DNA of 64,000 bases, taken from assembly GCF_001651865.1 (NCBI RefSeq), contig NZ_LPUX01000064.1, positions 372,001-436,000 of the forward strand. Direction: 5' to 3'. Positions 5,831 through 27,539 of this stretch are shown piece by piece. This DNA is from Sinorhizobium glycinis. Lineage in GTDB: Bacteria; Pseudomonadota; Alphaproteobacteria; Rhizobiales; Rhizobiaceae. Every line of letters begins with the position of its first letter. Positions within the stretch are counted from its first letter, which is position 1. The notes beneath the pieces were generated by a model, which was not told where the DNA came from, did not search any database, and was given only the letters and a program-made list of their open reading frames with translations. The translations under genes were made by a program, and so were the position numbers.

Positions 5831-6856
<1,026 letters not shown>

Positions 6857-19490: not shown

Positions 19491-20087
19491 ATGTCCAGCT
19501 GGAACTCTGGCCGCATCATCGGTCAGAAGCCCCCATTGAAGCCGAAGGAGGTCTGGGCCATCCGGACCCGCCTTCAGATGTTGGGTGCAGTGCGCGACCT
19601 GGCGCTGTTTAATCTCGCGATCGACAGCAAGTTGCGAGCTTGTGATCTGGTCGCGATCTCAGTTGCTGATGTCGCGATTTCCGGAAGGGTTCGCGAGCGG
19701 GCGATCATCATTCAGAGGAAGACCGGCCGACCCGTGCAATTCGAACTCACCGATCAAACGCGGGAGGCTGTCGGTGCATGGATTGGAAGTCGCAGACTCG
19801 GTGAAAGGGATTACCTATTTCCGAGCCGCGTGCACGCATTGCCGCATCTGTCGACGCGGCAATATAGCAGGGTCGTCGAAAGGTGGGTGTCCAGCATCGG
19901 GCTTGATCCCAAACGCTACGGCACACATTCGATGAGACGGACGAAGGCGGCGCATATCTACAAGAAGACGGGCAACCTGCGGGCCGTCCAGCTCTTGCTC
20001 AGCCACAAGAAGCTGGAGAGCACCGTGCAGTACCTCGGGATCGAGGTCGACGACGCCTTGGCCATCTCTGAGCAAGTTGAGCTGTAG
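19491..20087 (+). CDS. Tyrosine recombinase (phage-type integrase), short form
   Basis: 198 residues, only the catalytic domain of the family. The first catalytic arginine is in AIDSKLRACDLVAISVADV near residue 48, the HxxR box is in THSMRRTKAAHIYKK near residue 145, and LLSHKKLESTVQYLGIEVDD holds the second histidine and the likely nucleophile tyrosine near residue 180. ATG 19491 follows GGAGGAAGG. No excisionase, attachment site or phage genes lie next to it. Short integrases of this kind are common on rhizobial plasmids. It may mark the edge of the aromatic island. Confidence 0.82.
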   Translation: MSSWNSGRIIGQKPPLKPKEVWAIRTRLQMLGAVRDLALFNLAIDSKLRACDLVAISVADVAISGRVRERAIIIQRKTGRPVQFELTDQTREAVGAWIGSRRLGERDYLFPSRVHALPHLSTRQYSRVVERWVSSIGLDPKRYGTHSMRRTKAAHIYKKTGNLRAVQLLLSHKKLESTVQYLGIEVDDALAISEQVEL

Positions 20088-20286: not shown

Positions 20287-21864
20287 CTAAGCTGCTTGGA
20301 CGGAACCTCGGCCGACGAGGCTGATGTCATCCGGATTTATCAGATCAGAACCCGTCCACCCGGAGAGGTCGTACTCGCTCATGCAGGCTTTCACCAAGGA
20401 CTGCATGGACGCGAGATCGCCGGTGACCGTCGCCGCTCCTAAGGTCTCGATCCGAAGGTTTTCATAGTTACCAGCATAATTGCGCTCATACAGTTCGTGG
20501 CGACCGCCGAACTCGGTGCCGATGGCGTCCCACAGAAGCTTCAAGAGCTTCACCCGGTCCAGCGCGGCATAGCCGTTCGAGCCACGTACGAACCGGTCAA
20601 GATAAGGACGGATCGCCTCACTTTCGAAATCGGCAGCACTCGACGGCAGATAGATGAGGCCACTCGCAACGTGACGTTCGATCAGTTCCTTGATCCGCGG
20701 ATAGGCCATCGGCGCCAACACGCGATAGGCAAGACCGGCATTGAGGTTCGGCAGGTTGTAGCCTTCGGTTCCCTGCCAAGGAACCGGCGACTTCACCATC
20801 GCATCACCGAGTGCATGAAACGTGTTGCGCCAAGCGATGACCTCGCCGACGCCGGCCTGGACGCCGCGAAAATCCTTCGAGCCCGTTGCCTCGACAGCCA
20901 TCGAGAAGAGACCGGCGATGAAGTCGAGTTTCACCGACAGGCGCGTAAGGCCGTGCAGCGTAAAGCGTGGGACGAAGCCCGATGCCGGGAAGAACTGATT
21001 GATCTTGTCGACGTCTCCGTAGATGAAGACGTTCTCCCAAGGCACCAATACCTTGTCGAAGACGAGAATGGAGTCGTTCTCGTCCAGGCGGCTGGAAAGC
21101 GGGTAGTCAAACGGAGATCCGGTTGCGGCCGCGTTGAACTCGTACGACGAGCGGGCAATGAGCTTGATGCCAGGCGAGTCCATTGGCGCGGTAAAGATTA
21201 GCGCAAAGGACTTGTCCTTGATTGGAATGCCATAGTGCGCGATGAAATTGTAATGCGTGAGGGCTGAGCCCGTCGCGACGACCTTGGCTCCGGACACAAT
21301 GAGCCCCTTGTCTGTCTCCTTCTCGACATGCATGAAGACGTCGCGCACCTCCTCGATCGGGCGGTCACGATCGATCGGCGGATTGACGATGGCGTGATTC
21401 CAGTAGTCGAGCCGTTCCTGCGTGCGGGCATACCATATGCGTGCGTTCTCGGCATATTCACCGTAGAAGGCCGAATTTGCGCCCAGCGTTCCCAGGAACG
21501 AGGCCTTGTAGTCCGGGGACCGGCCCATCCATCCGTAGGAGACCTTCTGCAGCTCGGCAATCGCGTCCCGCGACTTGATCAGATCCTCGCTCGTCTTCGA
21601 TCCCAGGAAGAAGGGATGCGTCAGCTTACCCGAGCCGGTATCGGTCAGCACACCAATTTCATTCTTCTTTTCATGGAACCGATCGTACCAGCGCGCCACC
21701 ATTCGCGAGGAATTCCGAAATGCCGGATGCTCGGTGACGTTTTTGACGCGCTCACCGTAGATATAGATCTCGCGGCCGTCCTGAATGCTCTCCAGGAACT
21801 CCGAGCCCGTGTAGGCGTCAGTCGCGGTTTCTTTTTCCTCGGACGCGATAGCCAGATTGTTCAT
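20287..21864 (-). CDS. FADH2-dependent aromatic hydroxylase, HpaB/TftD family
   Basis: 525 residues, the usual length for the oxygenase component of two-component flavin monooxygenases (4-hydroxyphenylacetate 3-hydroxylase, chlorophenol monooxygenases). The N-terminal family region is [18 protein letters not shown] near residue 38, the conserved [15 protein letters not shown] near 112 carries the Arg and Tyr that bind flavin and phenol in HpaB, and [11 protein letters not shown] follows near 207. It uses FADH2 supplied by a reductase to ortho-hydroxylate a phenol; the reductase is encoded at 22686-23213. ATG 21864 follows GGAGGAG. It is divergent from the ring-cleavage operon, sharing its control region. 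The true phenolic substrate cannot be read from the sequence. Confidence 0.82.
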
Positions 21865-21978: not shown

Positions 21979-21999
21979 TGATAGGTATCATGCGATACC
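21979..21999. promoter_or_regulatory. Overlapping dyads in the divergent hydroxylase/operon promoter
   Basis: TGATAGGTATCA (arms TGATA/TATCA) overlaps GGTATCATGCGATACC (arms GGTATC/GATACC). Both sit in the 229-base gap between the hydroxylase (minus) and the flavin operon (plus). They give three phased GATA/TATC arms, a plausible operator for the LysR regulator encoded at 26655. Confidence 0.5.
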
Positions 22000-22093: not shown

Positions 22094-22699
22094 ATGGATC
22101 ATCACCCCGGCATTCATACGCAGATTCACGACGACACCGGATTGACGCTTTCCGGGTCGGCCCTGACGATCGGAGCCTTTGATGGCGTCCACAGCGGCCA
22201 CCAGGCGTTGATCCGGTCGACTGTGCTCAGTGCGCAAAGACTCGGGGTTCCCTCGGTCGTCTACACGTTCGATCCGCCTCCCAAGGCTCTGCTGTGCGGT
22301 GCCCGTCCGCTCACTTCGATTGGCGAGAAGGTCGCGCGGATAAGCGCACTTGGCCCCGACCACATCGTCGTCGCCCGTTTCGATGCGGCCTATCGGGCCC
22401 GCACAGCCACCGATTTCATCCAGGATCTTGGTCGGATTGCGCCGCTGGTCATCTGGATCGGCTCCGATTTCCGCTTCGGTTCCTGCAAGAAAGGGACTCC
22501 GGAGTTGCTCGCCGGCTACTTCGATACGCGGATCCTTCCAGCCGTATGCTGCGAATCCGGCGAGGTCGTATCGAGCACACGCATTCGCGCCCTTAGGGCC
22601 GCAGGACGTGTCCTGGAGGCAGAACGGTTGGAAGGATGGTCGGAGCTTCTGCCGTTCCGACGGTCCAGTGACAATGGAGGACACCATGCGACTGCTTGA
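22094..22699 (+). CDS. Stand-alone FMN adenylyltransferase (RibF N-terminal domain only)
   Basis: 201 residues. It carries the nucleotidyltransferase half of bifunctional RibF: TIGAFDGVHSGHQALI near residue 25 (the HxGH-like motif), FDPPPKALLCG, IWIGSDFRFGSCKKGTPEL near 125, and VVSSTRIRALRAAGRV near 165. It ends there, so the riboflavin-kinase domain (about 120 residues in RibF) is absent. Expected reaction: FMN + ATP to FAD + diphosphate. ATG 22094 is chosen for the perfect GGGAGGAG three bases upstream. It overlaps the flavin-reductase gene by 14 bases, so FAD making and flavin reduction are coupled in one operon that faces an FADH2-using hydroxylase. This arrangement suggests dedicated FAD supply. 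Confidence 0.8.
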   Translation: MDHHPGIHTQIHDDTGLTLSGSALTIGAFDGVHSGHQALIRSTVLSAQRLGVPSVVYTFDPPPKALLCGARPLTSIGEKVARISALGPDHIVVARFDAAYRARTATDFIQDLGRIAPLVIWIGSDFRFGSCKKGTPELLAGYFDTRILPAVCCESGEVVSSTRIRALRAAGRVLEAERLEGWSELLPFRRSSDNGGHHATA

Positions 22700-23213
22700 C
22701 CCCCGTACGTTTCGCGACGCCTGCGGTGTCTTCGCGACCGGTGTTAATGTCATTACCACCCATAGCGACGGCCACGATCACGGCATGACTGCGAATGCGT
22801 TCATGTCGATTTCGCTCGATCCGCCACTGATTGCCATCTCAATCGCCGAGAAGGCGAGAATGCTCGAGAAGATCCAGAAGTCGGGGCGTTTTGCCGTCAG
22901 CGTTCTTGCTTGCGGAATGGACTCTGTTGCCTGGCACTTCGCCGGCAAGCCAAACGCTGACCTGCATGATTTGTTCGACACACTCGATGGCCTTCCAGTG
23001 ATCCGCGGCGCGCTTGTCACGTTCTCGGCCATCGTCCACGACGAAATCCTCGCCGGCGATCACACGATCTTCGTCGGCCGCGTCCAGTCGCTCGCGAGAA
23101 GCGACGGCGATGAACCGCTGCTTTTCTTCAAGGGCAAATTCGGCGCCGTGGAAAATACGCGAAAGGCTGCGTCAGTCTACAGGCTTGAGGTCGAGACCGA
23201 GTTCATGTGGTGA
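22686..23213 (+). CDS. Flavin reductase (HpaC-like) of a two-component monooxygenase
   Basis: 175 residues of the FMN-binding split-barrel flavin-reductase family: FRDACGVFATGVNVITTHSD near residue 8, GMTANAFMSISLDPPLIAIS near 34, DHTIFVGRVQSLAR near 125. It reduces FAD or FMN with NAD(P)H and hands FADH2 to the hydroxylase. ATG 22686 has GGAGGA upstream; an ATG 12 bases earlier lacks one. It overlaps the adenylyltransferase gene. Confidence 0.87.
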   Translation: MRLLDPRTFRDACGVFATGVNVITTHSDGHDHGMTANAFMSISLDPPLIAISIAEKARMLEKIQKSGRFAVSVLACGMDSVAWHFAGKPNADLHDLFDTLDGLPVIRGALVTFSAIVHDEILAGDHTIFVGRVQSLARSDGDEPLLFFKGKFGAVENTRKAASVYRLEVETEFMW

Positions 23214-23253: not shown

Positions 23254-24123
23254 ATGCGAAACGTAACCCAGCAAAATATTTCGGATGTCGTAATCGCCGC
23301 ACTGTCGCCGGATATCCCGGCCCGCAACCGGCAGATTCTCGAAAGCCTCATCCGCCACATCCACGCCTTCTGTATCGAGGCGAAGATCACCCACGCGGAG
23401 CTGATAGAAGCCTGTCAATTCCTCGTCCGCGCCGGACACATCTCCAATGACGCACGCAACGAGTTCATCCTGCTTGCCGACATCCTGGGCGTCGAGGTCC
23501 TTGTCGACATGCTCGACCACGCGGTGACCGATGGCGAGAGCGAATCCACCGTCCTCGGACCGTTCTATCGCGAAAACCCGCCCGTGTTGCCGAACGGCGC
23601 CTCGATTGTTCAGAAGAGCTTCGAAGGCTCCGAGACAGTGCGTGTCCGCGGAGTGGTGCGCGACACGGCAGGACGCCCCATTCCTGGCGTGACGGTGGAC
23701 GTTTGGGAGGACGCCCCGAACGGCCTCTATGAACAGCAGGATCCGGATCAGCCCGATTACAATCTTCGCGGCCGCTTCCTGACCGACGAAAACGGCGAAT
23801 ACGAGTTCGTCGGAATTCGGCCGGTTCCCTATCCGATCCCCTACGACGGCGCCGCCGGCGAACTGCTGAACTATATGGGCCACCACCCGTGGCGCCCTGG
23901 CCATATCCACTTCATGCTCGACAAAGATGGCTATCAAAGCCTTGTGTCGCAGATCTATGACGCGGATACCGAGTATCTCGACAACGACGCCGTCTTCGCC
24001 GTTAAGGAAAGCCTCATTGGCAAGATGGGCAAGGCCGAAGCTGGCGCGGATACGGATCTCGTCATGGAATTCGATTTCAAGCTCAAGCCGGCTACCGGCA
24101 CCATGTCTGTCGCCGCCGAGTAA
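23254..24123 (+). CDS. Intradiol ring-cleavage dioxygenase (catechol/hydroxyquinol 1,2-dioxygenase)
   Basis: 289 residues. An N-terminal dimerisation domain is followed by ESTVLGPFYRENPP near residue 102 and the catalytic core. The non-haem Fe(III) ligands expected in this family are visible: tyrosines in GLYEQQDPDQPDYNLRGRF and in RPVPYPIPYDG, histidines in HHPWRPGHIHFM near residue 220. It opens an ortho-dihydroxylated ring between the hydroxyls. The wording NLRGRF and PYPIP resembles hydroxyquinol 1,2-dioxygenases, while the neighbouring cycloisomerase argues for a muconate product, so catechol or a substituted catechol is equally possible. ATG 23254 follows AAGGAGGAG. Confidence 0.84.
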   Translation: MRNVTQQNISDVVIAALSPDIPARNRQILESLIRHIHAFCIEAKITHAELIEACQFLVRAGHISNDARNEFILLADILGVEVLVDMLDHAVTDGESESTVLGPFYRENPPVLPNGASIVQKSFEGSETVRVRGVVRDTAGRPIPGVTVDVWEDAPNGLYEQQDPDQPDYNLRGRFLTDENGEYEFVGIRPVPYPIPYDGAAGELLNYMGHHPWRPGHIHFMLDKDGYQSLVSQIYDADTEYLDNDAVFAVKESLIGKMGKAEAGADTDLVMEFDFKLKPATGTMSVAAE

Positions 24124-24196: not shown

Positions 24197-25384
24197 ATGC
24201 CCCCCGCAATCGCTGAACCATCCCCAACTCCTGACCAATCCGCGGTCGGTATGCGGGACATGCGGATTCGGTCCATCGTAGCGACCATCCTCGAGGCTCC
24301 TACCATTCGCCGGCACAAGCTTTCGAACACGGAGATCGCCCACCAGGGATTTGTTCTCGTGCGGGTTCTGCTTGAGAACGGTGTCACGGGCATCGGCGAG
24401 GCCTCTACGCTCGGTGGGCCGCGTTGGGCCGAGGAGAGTGTGGAGTCAATACAGGCGGTCATCGAGAAATATCTCGCCCCCGCCCTCGCAGATCAGAATG
24501 CGATGATGTTCGAGGCCAATGCCGTGCGCATGTCAAAGGCGGCCACGCGCAATTTCGCTGCAAAGGCTGCGGTTGAGTCGGCACTTTTTGATGCCGTCGG
24601 CCGCACGCTCGACCTGCCCGCCAGTGCGTTGCTCGGCGGTCAGGTCCGCGACAGAATCGGCGTGATCTGGGCGCTTGCCTCCGGCGATTCCGGACAGGAA
24701 CTTGAGGAGGCACGCGAGAAGCTACGTCTGCGTCAGCACAAGGAATTCAAGATCAAACTCGGCTTCAACGCGCCGGATGCCGATGTCAGGCGCCTGCAAC
24801 ACTTGCGCGCCGGCTTGGGCGACGACGTGCGGCTTATCGTCGATGTCAACCAAGCATGGACGGAAGCACTATGCCTCAGGCTCTTTCCCGCGCTCGAGGA
24901 ACTCGGCGTGGCGCTGATCGAGCAACCGGTTCCGGCGTCCCAACGCGACGCCATGGCGCGTGTCGCTTCGCGGACCCGTATCCCTCTACTCATCGACGAG
25001 GCGGCCTTCACCAACACGGAACTGGCGAGTGTCGCCTCGCACGCCTGCGGAAGCGTTTATTCCCTCAAGCTGGTGAAAAGCGGCGGGCTTCTTGAGCTCA
25101 AGCGAGCGGCCGGCATCGCGCAGGCATTCGGTATCGAGCTTTATGGCGGGTGCCTGCTGGAAAGCAGCATCGGCGCAGCAGCGCACATGGCTGTGTTTTC
25201 GACGCTCCCCAAGCTCGAATGGGGAAGCGAGCACTTCGGGCCCCGTATTCTCGTGGACGACCTGGTCGCGGCGCCGCTGGTCTTCGAGGATTTCGAGATC
25301 CATGTACCGAGCGGCCCTGGGCTCGGCATGATCCTCGACGAAGATAAGGTGCGCTTCATGGCGCGGAAGGCAGGAAGCAAATGA
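24197..25384 (+). CDS. Muconate cycloisomerase family (CatB-like enolase superfamily)
   Basis: 395 residues. The N-terminal cap has FVLVRVLLENGVTGIGEAST and LGGPRWAEESVESIQ. The barrel shows the KxK acid/base pair (FKIKLGF near residue 188), metal ligands in DVNQAW, IEQPV and IDEAAF, and the second lysine in SLKLVKSGG near 300, then LESSIG. These are the active-site residues of muconate-lactonising enzymes, which turn cis,cis-muconate into muconolactone. ATG 24197 (AGGAAC upstream) gives a 17-20-residue extension before the conserved start MRIRSIVATIL; a start at an internal ATG near there is possible. Its last codons overlap the next gene (ATGA). Confidence 0.85.
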   Translation: MPPAIAEPSPTPDQSAVGMRDMRIRSIVATILEAPTIRRHKLSNTEIAHQGFVLVRVLLENGVTGIGEASTLGGPRWAEESVESIQAVIEKYLAPALADQNAMMFEANAVRMSKAATRNFAAKAAVESALFDAVGRTLDLPASALLGGQVRDRIGVIWALASGDSGQELEEAREKLRLRQHKEFKIKLGFNAPDADVRRLQHLRAGLGDDVRLIVDVNQAWTEALCLRLFPALEELGVALIEQPVPASQRDAMARVASRTRIPLLIDEAAFTNTELASVASHACGSVYSLKLVKSGGLLELKRAAGIAQAFGIELYGGCLLESSIGAAAHMAVFSTLPKLEWGSEHFGPRILVDDLVAAPLVFEDFEIHVPSGPGLGMILDEDKVRFMARKAGSK

Positions 25385-25782
25385 CGCCTGGAACGCCGCA
25401 CACTGTACATCGCTCCAAACTCGATCAAATGGCGGAGAGACTCGACGCGACGCCTCATCTCCTGCGCCTCGGGCGCCTGTTCAATGAAACGGTGCTGATC
25501 GAGATCGACCAGGATGAGTTTTACCTCACCTTCGAGAAGGGGCGCGTCGCAGAGATCAAAGAAGGTCCAAGCAAGAAACTGCCCTGGCGCTTCGCGCTCA
25601 GGGCCAAAGGTGAGGCGCTGGACAAATTCTGGCATCCGATACCGGAGCCCGGCTTCCATGACATTTTCGGTCTTGTGAAATATGGGCATGGCCGCATCGA
25701 CGGAGATATTCTGACGCTCGTGAAAAACCTGCGCTACTTCAAGGAATTCATGGCATTGGGACGGCGGGAGGAAAGCCAATGA
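25381..25782 (+). CDS. Small SCP2-like protein in the ring-cleavage operon, function unknown
   Basis: 133 residues, no signal peptide or membrane segment. The pattern FYLTFEKGRVAEIKEGP, then FALRAKGEALDKFW, PEPGFHDIFGLVKYGHG and IDGDILTLVKNLRYF resembles the SCP2 sterol-carrier fold, which makes a hydrophobic pocket. It overlaps both neighbours by four bases (ATGA), so it is tightly co-translated with the cycloisomerase and the hydrolase. It occupies the place where a muconolactone isomerase would be expected, but it does not look like CatC. I do not know its function; a ligand-binding or chaperoning role is a guess. Confidence 0.65.
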   Translation: MTPGTPHTVHRSKLDQMAERLDATPHLLRLGRLFNETVLIEIDQDEFYLTFEKGRVAEIKEGPSKKLPWRFALRAKGEALDKFWHPIPEPGFHDIFGLVKYGHGRIDGDILTLVKNLRYFKEFMALGRREESQ

Positions 25783-26648
25783 CATCGTCGATCGAGCCGA
25801 TCACCGGCCGATATATCCGCCTGACCGTCGATGGCACACCTTTGCGGGTCTACTTCGAAGAAGCCGGCCGAGGCCGTCCGGTGGTCTGCCTGCATACGGC
25901 CGGGGCCGATACGCGCCAATGGCGGTTCATTCTCAACGACGAGGTTTTCACCAGTTCGCACCGCTTCCTGGCATTCGACATGCCCTGGCACGGCAAGTCT
26001 TTGCCGCCGCAAGGATTCGAGACTGCGGAATACCTTCTGACCACCGGAACCTACATCGAAACAGTGCTCTCGTTTTGCAACGCGCTGGGCCTGGAGAAGC
26101 CGCTGCTCGCGGGGTGCTCAATGGGGGGGCGGATCGCTCTGCAACTGGCAGCGCTGCATCCCGATCGTTTTGCCGGTTTCATCGCCGTCGAGGCGTCCGA
26201 TTTCCAGCCAGCGTGGTATGACATCGATTGGTTTCATCGTCCCGACGCCCACGGCGGCGAGATGGGCGCCGCCCTCGTCTCCGCCAATATTGCGCCTCAC
26301 GCGCCCCCCGTCGAACGGTGGAACACCCAGTGGATGTTCATGCAATCGGGTCCGGGCGTGTTCCGCGGTGATCTCAGTTTCTACACGAAGGATGACAGCC
26401 TCGTCGGCAGGCTGGGAATGATCGACACGAGACAGACGCCGGTGCATATCATGTGCGGCGAATACGACATGACCTGCACACCCGAGGACGCCCGTCGGAC
26501 CGCGGAGGCCATTGACGGCGCCACCCTTGCCATCATGAAGGATCTTGGACATTTTCCGATGAGCGAGAACCCCGCCGCCTTCCGGCCCTATTTTCAGGAG
26601 GCGCTGGAGCTTATGAGACACTCCCATGCGGAGCTGACTCATGCCTGA
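25779..26648 (+). CDS. Alpha/beta hydrolase, possible enol-lactone hydrolase
   Basis: 289 residues, complete alpha/beta-hydrolase fold. The nucleophile elbow is GCSMGGRIALQL near residue 110, the acid is in GEYDMTCTPEDA near 228, and the catalytic histidine is in DLGHFPMSENP near 258. GADTRQWRFILND marks the oxyanion region. In an ortho-cleavage operon the expected job is opening of a 3-oxoadipate-type enol-lactone (PcaD-like), but MhpC-like C-C hydrolases are also similar. Cytosolic; fourth of the tightly packed catabolic genes before the LysR gene. Confidence 0.8.
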   Translation: MTSSIEPITGRYIRLTVDGTPLRVYFEEAGRGRPVVCLHTAGADTRQWRFILNDEVFTSSHRFLAFDMPWHGKSLPPQGFETAEYLLTTGTYIETVLSFCNALGLEKPLLAGCSMGGRIALQLAALHPDRFAGFIAVEASDFQPAWYDIDWFHRPDAHGGEMGAALVSANIAPHAPPVERWNTQWMFMQSGPGVFRGDLSFYTKDDSLVGRLGMIDTRQTPVHIMCGEYDMTCTPEDARRTAEAIDGATLAIMKDLGHFPMSENPAAFRPYFQEALELMRHSHAELTHA

Positions 26649-26654
26649 CGGACG

Positions 26655-27539
26655 ATGATGGACTTCAAACGGCTGAGCTATTTTCTGGCGGTGGCGGAAG
26701 AGCTGCATTTCGGAAGGGCGTCCGCGCGGCTCGGCATTGCCCAACCTCCGCTCAGTCGCCAGATAGCTCAGTTCGAAAAGGAGATCGGGGCAATCCTGTT
26801 CGATCGCAGCCGCAGCCAGATCAGGCTCACCCAAGCGGGCGAACTGCTTCAGGAACGGGCAAGAGAAATATTGGAGCGCGTTGACCAGACGGAGCGCGAG
26901 GTGAAACGCATCGGCGAAGGGGTTGCAGGTCGTCTGCGGATCGCCTTCGTCGGCACCGCCACGTTCGGAGTCCTGCCCAACATCATCAAGGCATTTCGAG
27001 TTGCCAATCCGGACATCGAGTTGGCACTGTCTGCCATGAACAACGCTGAGCTGAAGCGCGCCCTGATCCAGAGGGAGATCGATATTGCTGTTGCGCGTCC
27101 GGCCATCGAGGATCCGGAGCTGAAATCCGAGACGTTGATCCAGGAGCCGCTGGTCCTTGCGCTGCCAGACGTATACGCCGACTTCCAAGGTCCGATAAAG
27201 CTCGAAGAACTGCGAGAAACGCCGTTCGTGCTTTTCCCGCGCCGGCCGAGGCCGAGCTACGCGGACTACGTCCTCGACGTCTGCAAGCGGAATGGCTTCA
27301 TCCCTGCTTCACAGGTTATGGCTCAGGACTTTTTGACCGCTATCAGCCTCGTCTCGGTCGGCGTGGGGGTGTGCATCGTGCCGCAGTCGGTCGCCCTCAA
27401 CGAGCGAACAGGGGTCGTCTACCGAAACTTTGAAGGCTTCAATCCGGGCACCAAACTCTCGCTAAACTATCGACGCGACAACCGCTCGCCACACCTGTTC
27501 CGGTTTCTGGCGCTCGCGCGGAAATTGGCCCGCACGTAA
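26655..27539 (+). CDS. LysR-family regulator, CatR/BenM-like
   Basis: 294 residues. The helix-turn-helix region MDFKRLSYFLAVAEELHFGR and IAQPPLSRQIAQFEKEIG is the pattern of the CatR/BenM/CatM branch, which activates ortho-cleavage genes in response to muconate. The effector domain has VGTATFGVLPNIIKAF and SVGVGVCIVPQSVA. It lies six bases after the hydrolase gene on the same strand, so it may be co-transcribed and autoregulated; the dyads at 21979-21999 are its likely targets. Confidence 0.85.
   Translation: MMDFKRLSYFLAVAEELHFGRASARLGIAQPPLSRQIAQFEKEIGAILFDRSRSQIRLTQAGELLQERAREILERVDQTEREVKRIGEGVAGRLRIAFVGTATFGVLPNIIKAFRVANPDIELALSAMNNAELKRALIQREIDIAVARPAIEDPELKSETLIQEPLVLALPDVYADFQGPIKLEELRETPFVLFPRRPRPSYADYVLDVCKRNGFIPASQVMAQDFLTAISLVSVGVGVCIVPQSVALNERTGVVYRNFEGFNPGTKLSLNYRRDNRSPHLFRFLALARKLART

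Follow-up and report, generated by a model that had tools for sequence, protein, structure and literature searches.

A putative kinase-less FAD synthetase encoded with a two-component hydroxylase

The window analyzed here is a 64,000-nucleotide stretch of the Sinorhizobium glycinis genome (contig NZ_LPUX01000064.1, positions 372,001 to 436,000). Within it, the gene at 22094–22699 (forward strand) probably encodes a monofunctional flavin mononucleotide (FMN) adenylyltransferase dedicated to the neighboring two-component aromatic hydroxylase, a sequence-based reading to which we give a probability of roughly 0.7. The original prediction, made from the letters of the window, had tied an adenylyltransferase without a kinase domain to such a hydroxylase; this part is supported by domain content, predicted fold, motifs, selection, and a recurrent neighborhood. 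The local supply line of flavin adenine dinucleotide (FAD) that it envisaged for the hydroxylase is plausible and has a published parallel.

The 201-residue product comprises only the FMN-adenylyltransferase module of RibF: its sole Pfam match is FAD_syn (PF06574, residues 20–162, 1.6e-30), and the same scan gave no match to Flavokinase (PF01687). The motifs FDGVHSGHQ, GSDFRFG, and SSTRIRAL all lie within this frame, whose ATG at 22094, chosen by eye, is preceded by GGAGGAGACC, and the absence of a riboflavin kinase domain behind them agrees with the initial reading. The protein stops 36 residues past SSTRIR, approximately where bifunctional RibF enters its kinase module. HxGH, SSTxxR, and a predicted fold matching the N-module of the Corynebacterium ammoniagenes FAD synthetase (FADS; CaFADS) place it with the bacterial FMN adenylyltransferases, and PF06574 without PF01687 keeps it from being filed as a bifunctional RibF. 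Also as described from the letters, the gene overlaps that of a flavin reductase by 14 bp and lies opposite a divergent HpaB-like gene for a hydroxylase dependent on reduced FAD (FADH2) (Table 1).

We propose that the housekeeping bifunctional RibF would provide FMN, which the window enzyme, probably co-expressed and possibly translationally coupled with the reductase, would convert to FAD on induction (FMN + ATP -> FAD + PPi). The reductase would then generate FADH2 for the HpaB-type oxygenase, and this, acting on a presumably aromatic substrate, would deliver a catechol-type product to the downstream intradiol dioxygenase and cycloisomerase.

The other FAD_syn protein of the genome (L001, 327 residues) carries both PF06574 and PF01687 and is a bifunctional RibF, the separate full-length enzyme that the original prediction had wanted sought; the window gene is thus not the genome's only FAD synthetase. 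The PF01687 match inside this ribF is the only one in the genome. At least five of 289 Alphaproteobacteria genomes (G000, G039, G059, G145, and G201) have two PF06574 matches, the second of whatever kind, among the matches listed, in a survey that was restricted to the strongest matches and is unsuited to counting kinase-less copies.

The kinase-less copies form a clade under purifying selection

GTDB genome contigs were scanned with an 11-row alignment and the best 80 loci kept. A clean gap separates 17 of them, with at least 42% best-segment identity and E values of 5e-45 or below, from the next 63, at 1e-27 or weaker. By the models of this analysis, the kinase is absent from all 17 top loci (the named set) and present in 61 of the 63 weaker ones, the two exceptions being L042, an Enterobacter frame that is short, and L089, whose frame runs into a contig end. 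In a tree of 158 FAD_syn domains (a quick search with SH-aLRT support and no bootstrap, leaving out recognized repeats and rows below 170 residues, including L006 and L194), 57 kinase-less rows fall on one side of a branch with a support of 99. This clade spans Alphaproteobacteria (Hyphomicrobiales, Rhodobacterales, and Sphingomonadales) and Bacilli. Comparison of the window gene with three Rhizobium-group copies gave ratios of nonsynonymous to synonymous substitution rates (dN/dS) of 0.12–0.21, indicating purifying selection.

Two short rows fall outside the 57-row clade: that of Variovorax (L016), which appears to have arisen separately, and L042. The latter (Enterobacter sp. EA-1, 5983–6648) is a ribF with a 221-residue frame that groups with ordinary ribF and is possibly broken or misassembled. 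A shortened copy of 133 residues in Shinella (L006, 5108–5509) stands directly before the dioxygenase gene; it lacks a neighboring reductase, the locus shows no HpaB match, and the whole looks like a decayed cluster.

Genomic neighborhood surveys

Two surveys counted the neighbors of kinase-less copies. The Rhizobiaceae survey covered 394 genomes, the window's own included, at a threshold of 1e-42; 11 matched, two of which were kinase-bearing (L110 and L111), leaving nine genomes with 10 copies. The Bacilli survey took 299 genomes from the class to which G688 belongs, this known-positive center included, at a threshold of 1e-40; 16 matched, but one of them showed no frame other than one as long as full RibF, and the remaining 15 genomes carry 16 copies (one of these, L194, has 132 residues by the frame used and may be incomplete). 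HpaB was found within 6 kb of all 10 Rhizobiaceae copies and 13 of the 16 Bacilli copies, whereas neither HpaB nor the flavin reductase was found within 6 kb of any of the 61 kinase-bearing loci by the same models, which were built from loci in this analysis and may miss cases; 44 of these 61 loci were at least 12 kb long. Without the window copy, the association with HpaB stands at 22/25 versus 0/61 (Fisher p 1e-17, a value overstated since the copies are related). In the named set, HpaB lies near 14 of the 17 copies, and the same 17 genomes hold nine further copies, eight of them near HpaB and the ninth near an acyl-CoA-dehydrogenase-type match.

A reductase lies within 6 kb of 10/10 Rhizobiaceae copies. 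The reductase gene comes next in the window, as it does at the annotated loci L003, L004, and L007–L011 of Alphaproteobacteria, where the annotated overlaps are 4 bp (L003, L007), 8 bp (L008), or 14 bp (L009, L010, L011), with none in L004. Nine of the 16 copies in the Bacilli survey come after HpaB, in clusters that also hold genes of the 3-hydroxyanthranilate dioxygenase, ACMSD, and RidA types. A kinase-less gene near HpaB, part of the combination proposed at the outset for a search across genomes, recurs in both Alphaproteobacteria and Bacilli. Given this recurrence and a Geobacillus precedent (PMC4539516, in excerpt), the view of the extra FAD-making gene as an oddity of this operon is not supported.

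Multiple copies also occur within one genome. Seven FAD_syn matches in Bacillus norwichensis (G687, the genome of L026) correspond to five frames of 180–186 residues and two longer ones of 293 and 318; HpaB adjoins four of the five short genes, and the fifth stands with an acyl-CoA-dehydrogenase-type match.

Sequence signatures of the clade

Catalytic motifs are retained throughout the clade, with a strict HxGH in 56 of 57 rows and SSxxR in all 57. At the position of CaFADS H57, the clade has Pro in 53 rows, the window protein among them, Ser in two, and Leu in two, versus His in 59, Gln in 14, other residues in nine, and Pro in none of 82 full-length rows (for three of these, L018, L151, and L161, the length of the tail rather than a kinase match decided the full-length label). 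Bacilli bifunctional rows, so far as their motif was printed, keep His here. The stretch from FG to SS is 30 residues long in each of the 55 clade rows where both motifs were found, versus 31–40 residues in the 53 full-length rows measured; a length of 30 occurred in one of seven ‘mid’ rows measured.

Evidence against the assignment and alternative explanations

Several observations weigh against a working adenylyltransferase dedicated to the hydroxylase. The FMN adenylyltransferase domain of C. ammoniagenes, expressed alone, made no FAD (PMC2573891, in excerpt), and in the window protein the phosphate-side His is replaced by Pro. The CaFADS variant N125D is inactive (PMC3509593, in excerpt), and the window protein has Asp at this position, as does the bifunctional RibF of the same genome. 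The literature searched yielded no biochemical data on alphaproteobacterial members. The neighborhood itself is not uniform: by the models used, a reductase lies within 6 kb of only eight of the 16 Bacilli survey copies, so an adjacent reductase is not the rule there, and HpaB is missing from the 6 kb around three of these copies (L187, L188, and L192). L187 lies on a 5.2-kb contig that encodes a catechol-2,3-dioxygenase-like protein, and L188 and L192 have nearby an acyl-CoA-dehydrogenase-fold protein that may or may not be a monooxygenase. Three of the 17 named copies likewise have no HpaB within 6 kb but are surrounded by genes of aromatic catabolism; two sit with RidA- and ACMSD-type genes (L028 and L033) and one with intradiol dioxygenase and cycloisomerase genes (L037), further gene names here having been read by eye.

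An alternative that we consider unlikely is that the window enzyme prefers reduced FMN (FMNH2), such that FMNH2 from the reductase is adenylylated straight to FADH2, on the spot for the oxygenase. H57 of CaFADS approaches the phosphates, and the Streptococcus pneumoniae FADS, which has Ser at this position (PMC6829536, in excerpt), requires reduced flavin for its adenylyltransferase step (PMC5548840, in excerpt). The clade-wide replacement of H57 and the adjacent reductase of the alphaproteobacterial loci weakly suggest such a substrate. However, a Bacillus subtilis FADS is also cited as reduced-flavin-specific (PMC5548840, in excerpt), yet the printed Bacilli bifunctional motifs keep His, and loss of His is therefore unneeded for this trait. 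The Bacilli copies without a reductase within 6 kb argue in the same direction. FMNH2 is, moreover, rapidly reoxidized in air, which counts against its direct use. About equally unlikely is the wider proposal that a free-standing FMN adenylyltransferase clade, split from RibF and common to catabolic clusters of Alphaproteobacteria and Bacilli, is a third component of two-component aromatic monooxygenases that makes FADH2 directly from the FMNH2 of the reductase, with the losses of H57 and the kinase reflecting a change of substrate.

It appears quite improbable that catalysis has been lost and that the protein carries flavin from reductase to hydroxylase or holds the two together as a scaffold, or that it runs in reverse as an FAD pyrophosphorylase. 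The loss of the kinase module and H57, the inactivity of the isolated CaFADS module, and the shortened loop in all measured clade rows would fit such roles, but a scaffold has no need of the catalytic motifs kept in nearly all rows, and removal of FAD makes little sense beside HpaB-type hydroxylases, which use FAD (PMC6165268, in excerpt). A decaying or frameshifted ribF copy, suggested by the missing kinase domain and by the further-shortened Shinella copy, is scarcely credible and was rejected, because length is conserved and the gene is under selection: relatives in two phyla have a similar length and end point, within a clade of high support, and no kinase remnant exists in the genome outside ribF. 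The similar end point and the lack of PF01687 elsewhere likewise rule out a frameshift at 22699, raised earlier as a possible cause of the missing kinase.

Relation to known systems

An FAD-making partner of a two-component hydroxylase is in principle already known. Three Geobacillus proteins were reportedly worked on in vitro by Liu et al. in 2010. The anthranilate 3-hydroxylase cluster of Geobacillus thermodenitrificans NG80-2 includes an FAD-making enzyme and an FAD reductase, said to supply FAD to its FAD-dependent hydroxylase (PMC4539516, in excerpt). By domains and position, the window resembles this type in encoding an FADH2-type monooxygenase, a flavin reductase, and an FAD-making-type enzyme together. 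It differs in its PheA2/HpaC-type reductase, its intradiol (ortho) pathway, and its Rhizobium-type genome; moreover, the excerpted review labels the Geobacillus enzyme a riboflavin kinase/FMN adenylyltransferase, whereas the window protein lacks PF01687, a comparison made by label only. The Geobacillus kind of pathway is matched by the gene order HpaB, kinase-less FADS, FMN-reductase-like, 3-hydroxyanthranilate dioxygenase, ACMSD-like, and RidA-like at L027, L029, L032, L036, L180, L186, and L194. In the phenol hydroxylase locus PtPL of Parageobacillus thermoglucosidasius, ribF stands beside sgcE6 (reductase) and hpaB, a reductase–oxygenase pair equated with PheA of strain A7 (PMC8696081, in excerpt). 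This locus, likened to the window by gene name only, recalls the best Protein Data Bank (PDB) match of the window reductase, a phenol 2-hydroxylase component, but it belongs to a meta-cleavage pathway, and the available portion of that paper does not discuss the role of ribF.

Listeria Lmo0728 is a monofunctional FMN adenylyltransferase. The window protein shares fold and motifs with bifunctional RibF, from which its clade differs in the missing riboflavin kinase module, the replaced H57, and the shorter FG-to-SS loop. A 2008 survey excluded five unusual groups, together comprising less than 5% of sequences, and FADS-like proteins with the N-terminal module only were among these groups (PMC2573891, in excerpt); the available portion of that account gives neither function, neighborhood, nor phylogeny for them. 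No kinase-less FADS clade tied to monooxygenases was found in the open-access literature among the matches listed. A review of two-component FAD monooxygenases (PMC6165268) mentions neither FAD synth, adenylyltransferase, RibF, nor riboflavin kinase, and PMC5481743 has the term FAD synthetase in a reference only. In their available portions, PMC10958861 names FAD synthetase once, on cofactor engineering, PMC5428420 holds nothing on the isolated module, and a preprint on gut riboflavin degradation (PMC12934955) deals with a bifunctional enzyme in a different setting. What appears new, as judged from the open literature searched, is the kinase-less clade, its signatures of a replaced H57 and a shortened loop, and the possible repeated recruitment of extra FAD synthetases.

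Two-component hydroxylases are used in biodegradation and in the production of hydroxylated aromatics, and a higher FADH2 supply is an aim in their engineering (PMC10958861, in excerpt). An enzyme without a kinase module, which bacteria of many lineages have kept beside such hydroxylases, offers a candidate part for raising it. The clade also makes two ideas testable: that a bacterial FMN adenylyltransferase module can work without its kinase half, and that reduced FMN can be a natural substrate.

Other divergent FAD_syn lineages

Sixteen kinase-less or divergent FAD_syn proteins outside the clade were examined (L014, L015, L017–L020, L118, L138–L143, L147, L150, and L151); L089, L164, and L165 were excluded, as a contig end or a short retrieved locus affected them. 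Within 6 kb, six have HpaB, three an acyl-CoA-dehydrogenase-type match, and 10 a reductase match, one of which (L020) falls on a gene annotated as LysR-type. PF01687 was absent from the two proteins scanned, L141 and L015; the tails of L018 and L151 equal those of full RibF in length, and these two may carry a divergent kinase missed by the single-sequence model. On the tree, the starred branches require the ‘mid’ label to have changed no fewer than four times, and extra FAD synthetases may therefore have been recruited beside flavin monooxygenases more than once.

Four proteins of Bacillus sp. OV166 (G690; L139, L141, L142, and L143) form a separate FAD_syn group of 271–286 residues whose C-terminal part has no assigned domain. 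They lie near acyl-CoA-dehydrogenase-type proteins (three of four clear by model score), and two of the four adjoin a flavin reductase gene.

The surrounding cluster

Table 1. Features of the hydroxylase cluster, in window positions
Feature	Position	Strand	Evidence
HpaB-type aromatic hydroxylase, oxygenase component (FADH2-dependent by family)	20287..21864	-	HpaB_N 1.1e-82, HpaB 6.8e-63
Candidate operator: GGTATC-ATGC-GATACC, a perfect palindrome within the divergent promoter region	21984..21999	.	sequence
Predicted FAD synthetase of 201 aa, with the FMN adenylyltransferase module and no kinase	22094..22699	+	PF06574
14-bp gene overlap, possible translational coupling	22686..22699	+	sequence
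Flavin reductase, PheA2/HpaC type	22686..23213	+	PF01613 5.5e-37; best PDB match 1rz0, phenol 2-hydroxylase component B, 1e-42
Intradiol ring-cleavage dioxygenase	23254..24123	+	PF00775 8.7e-44, PF04444 7.6e-24
Muconate/chloromuconate cycloisomerase family protein	24197..25384	+	TIGR02534 399.2 bits, cut-off 334.95
Hypothetical protein, 133 aa	25381..25782	+	neither Pfam nor NCBIfam match
Alpha/beta hydrolase, distantly enol-lactonase-like	25779..26648	+	PF00561 2.2e-19; NCBIfam enol-lactonase models far below cut-offs
LysR-type regulator	26655..27539	+	PF03466, PF00126

The oxygenase, with HpaB_N and HpaB domains and a Flavin_Reduct partner, belongs to the HpaB-type two-component monooxygenases and matches PDB entries 4oo2, 6qyh, and 6b1b. 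It falls below the cut-off of TIGR02310 (4-hydroxyphenylacetate 3-hydroxylase HpaB; 685.6 versus 885.2 bits), and its substrate is therefore left unnamed. Anthranilate was considered and found unsupported: a search of the five genomes of Alphaproteobacteria in the named set, which did not extend to the window's own genome, gave no 3-hydroxyanthranilate dioxygenase match above the cut-off. For the reductase, the ATG at 22686, with GGAGG ahead of it, is the best start by eye.

A classical catechol ortho pathway is uncertain here: a search of the window's own genome for muconolactone isomerase (PF02426) found no match, although catC adjoins the cluster in Bradyrhizobium (L003). The 133-residue protein or the alpha/beta hydrolase may stand in for this enzyme. 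The palindrome, a candidate regulator site, is identical in the rhizobial relatives L005, L021, and L022, with near-matches by eye in the Bradyrhizobium loci L003 and L023. By its position, the LysR-type regulator possibly acts on the cluster.

An integrase-like frame at 19491–20087, with recombinase motifs recognized by eye, adjoins the cluster and fits mobility. On a Sphingobium plasmid (L008, 1013–8215), LysR, IclR, hydroxylase, FAD synthetase, and reductase genes are flanked by two IS6100 transposase genes, likely forming a mobile unit, and tblastn gave matches of equal score to this locus on four other Sphingobium/Sphingopyxis plasmid records.
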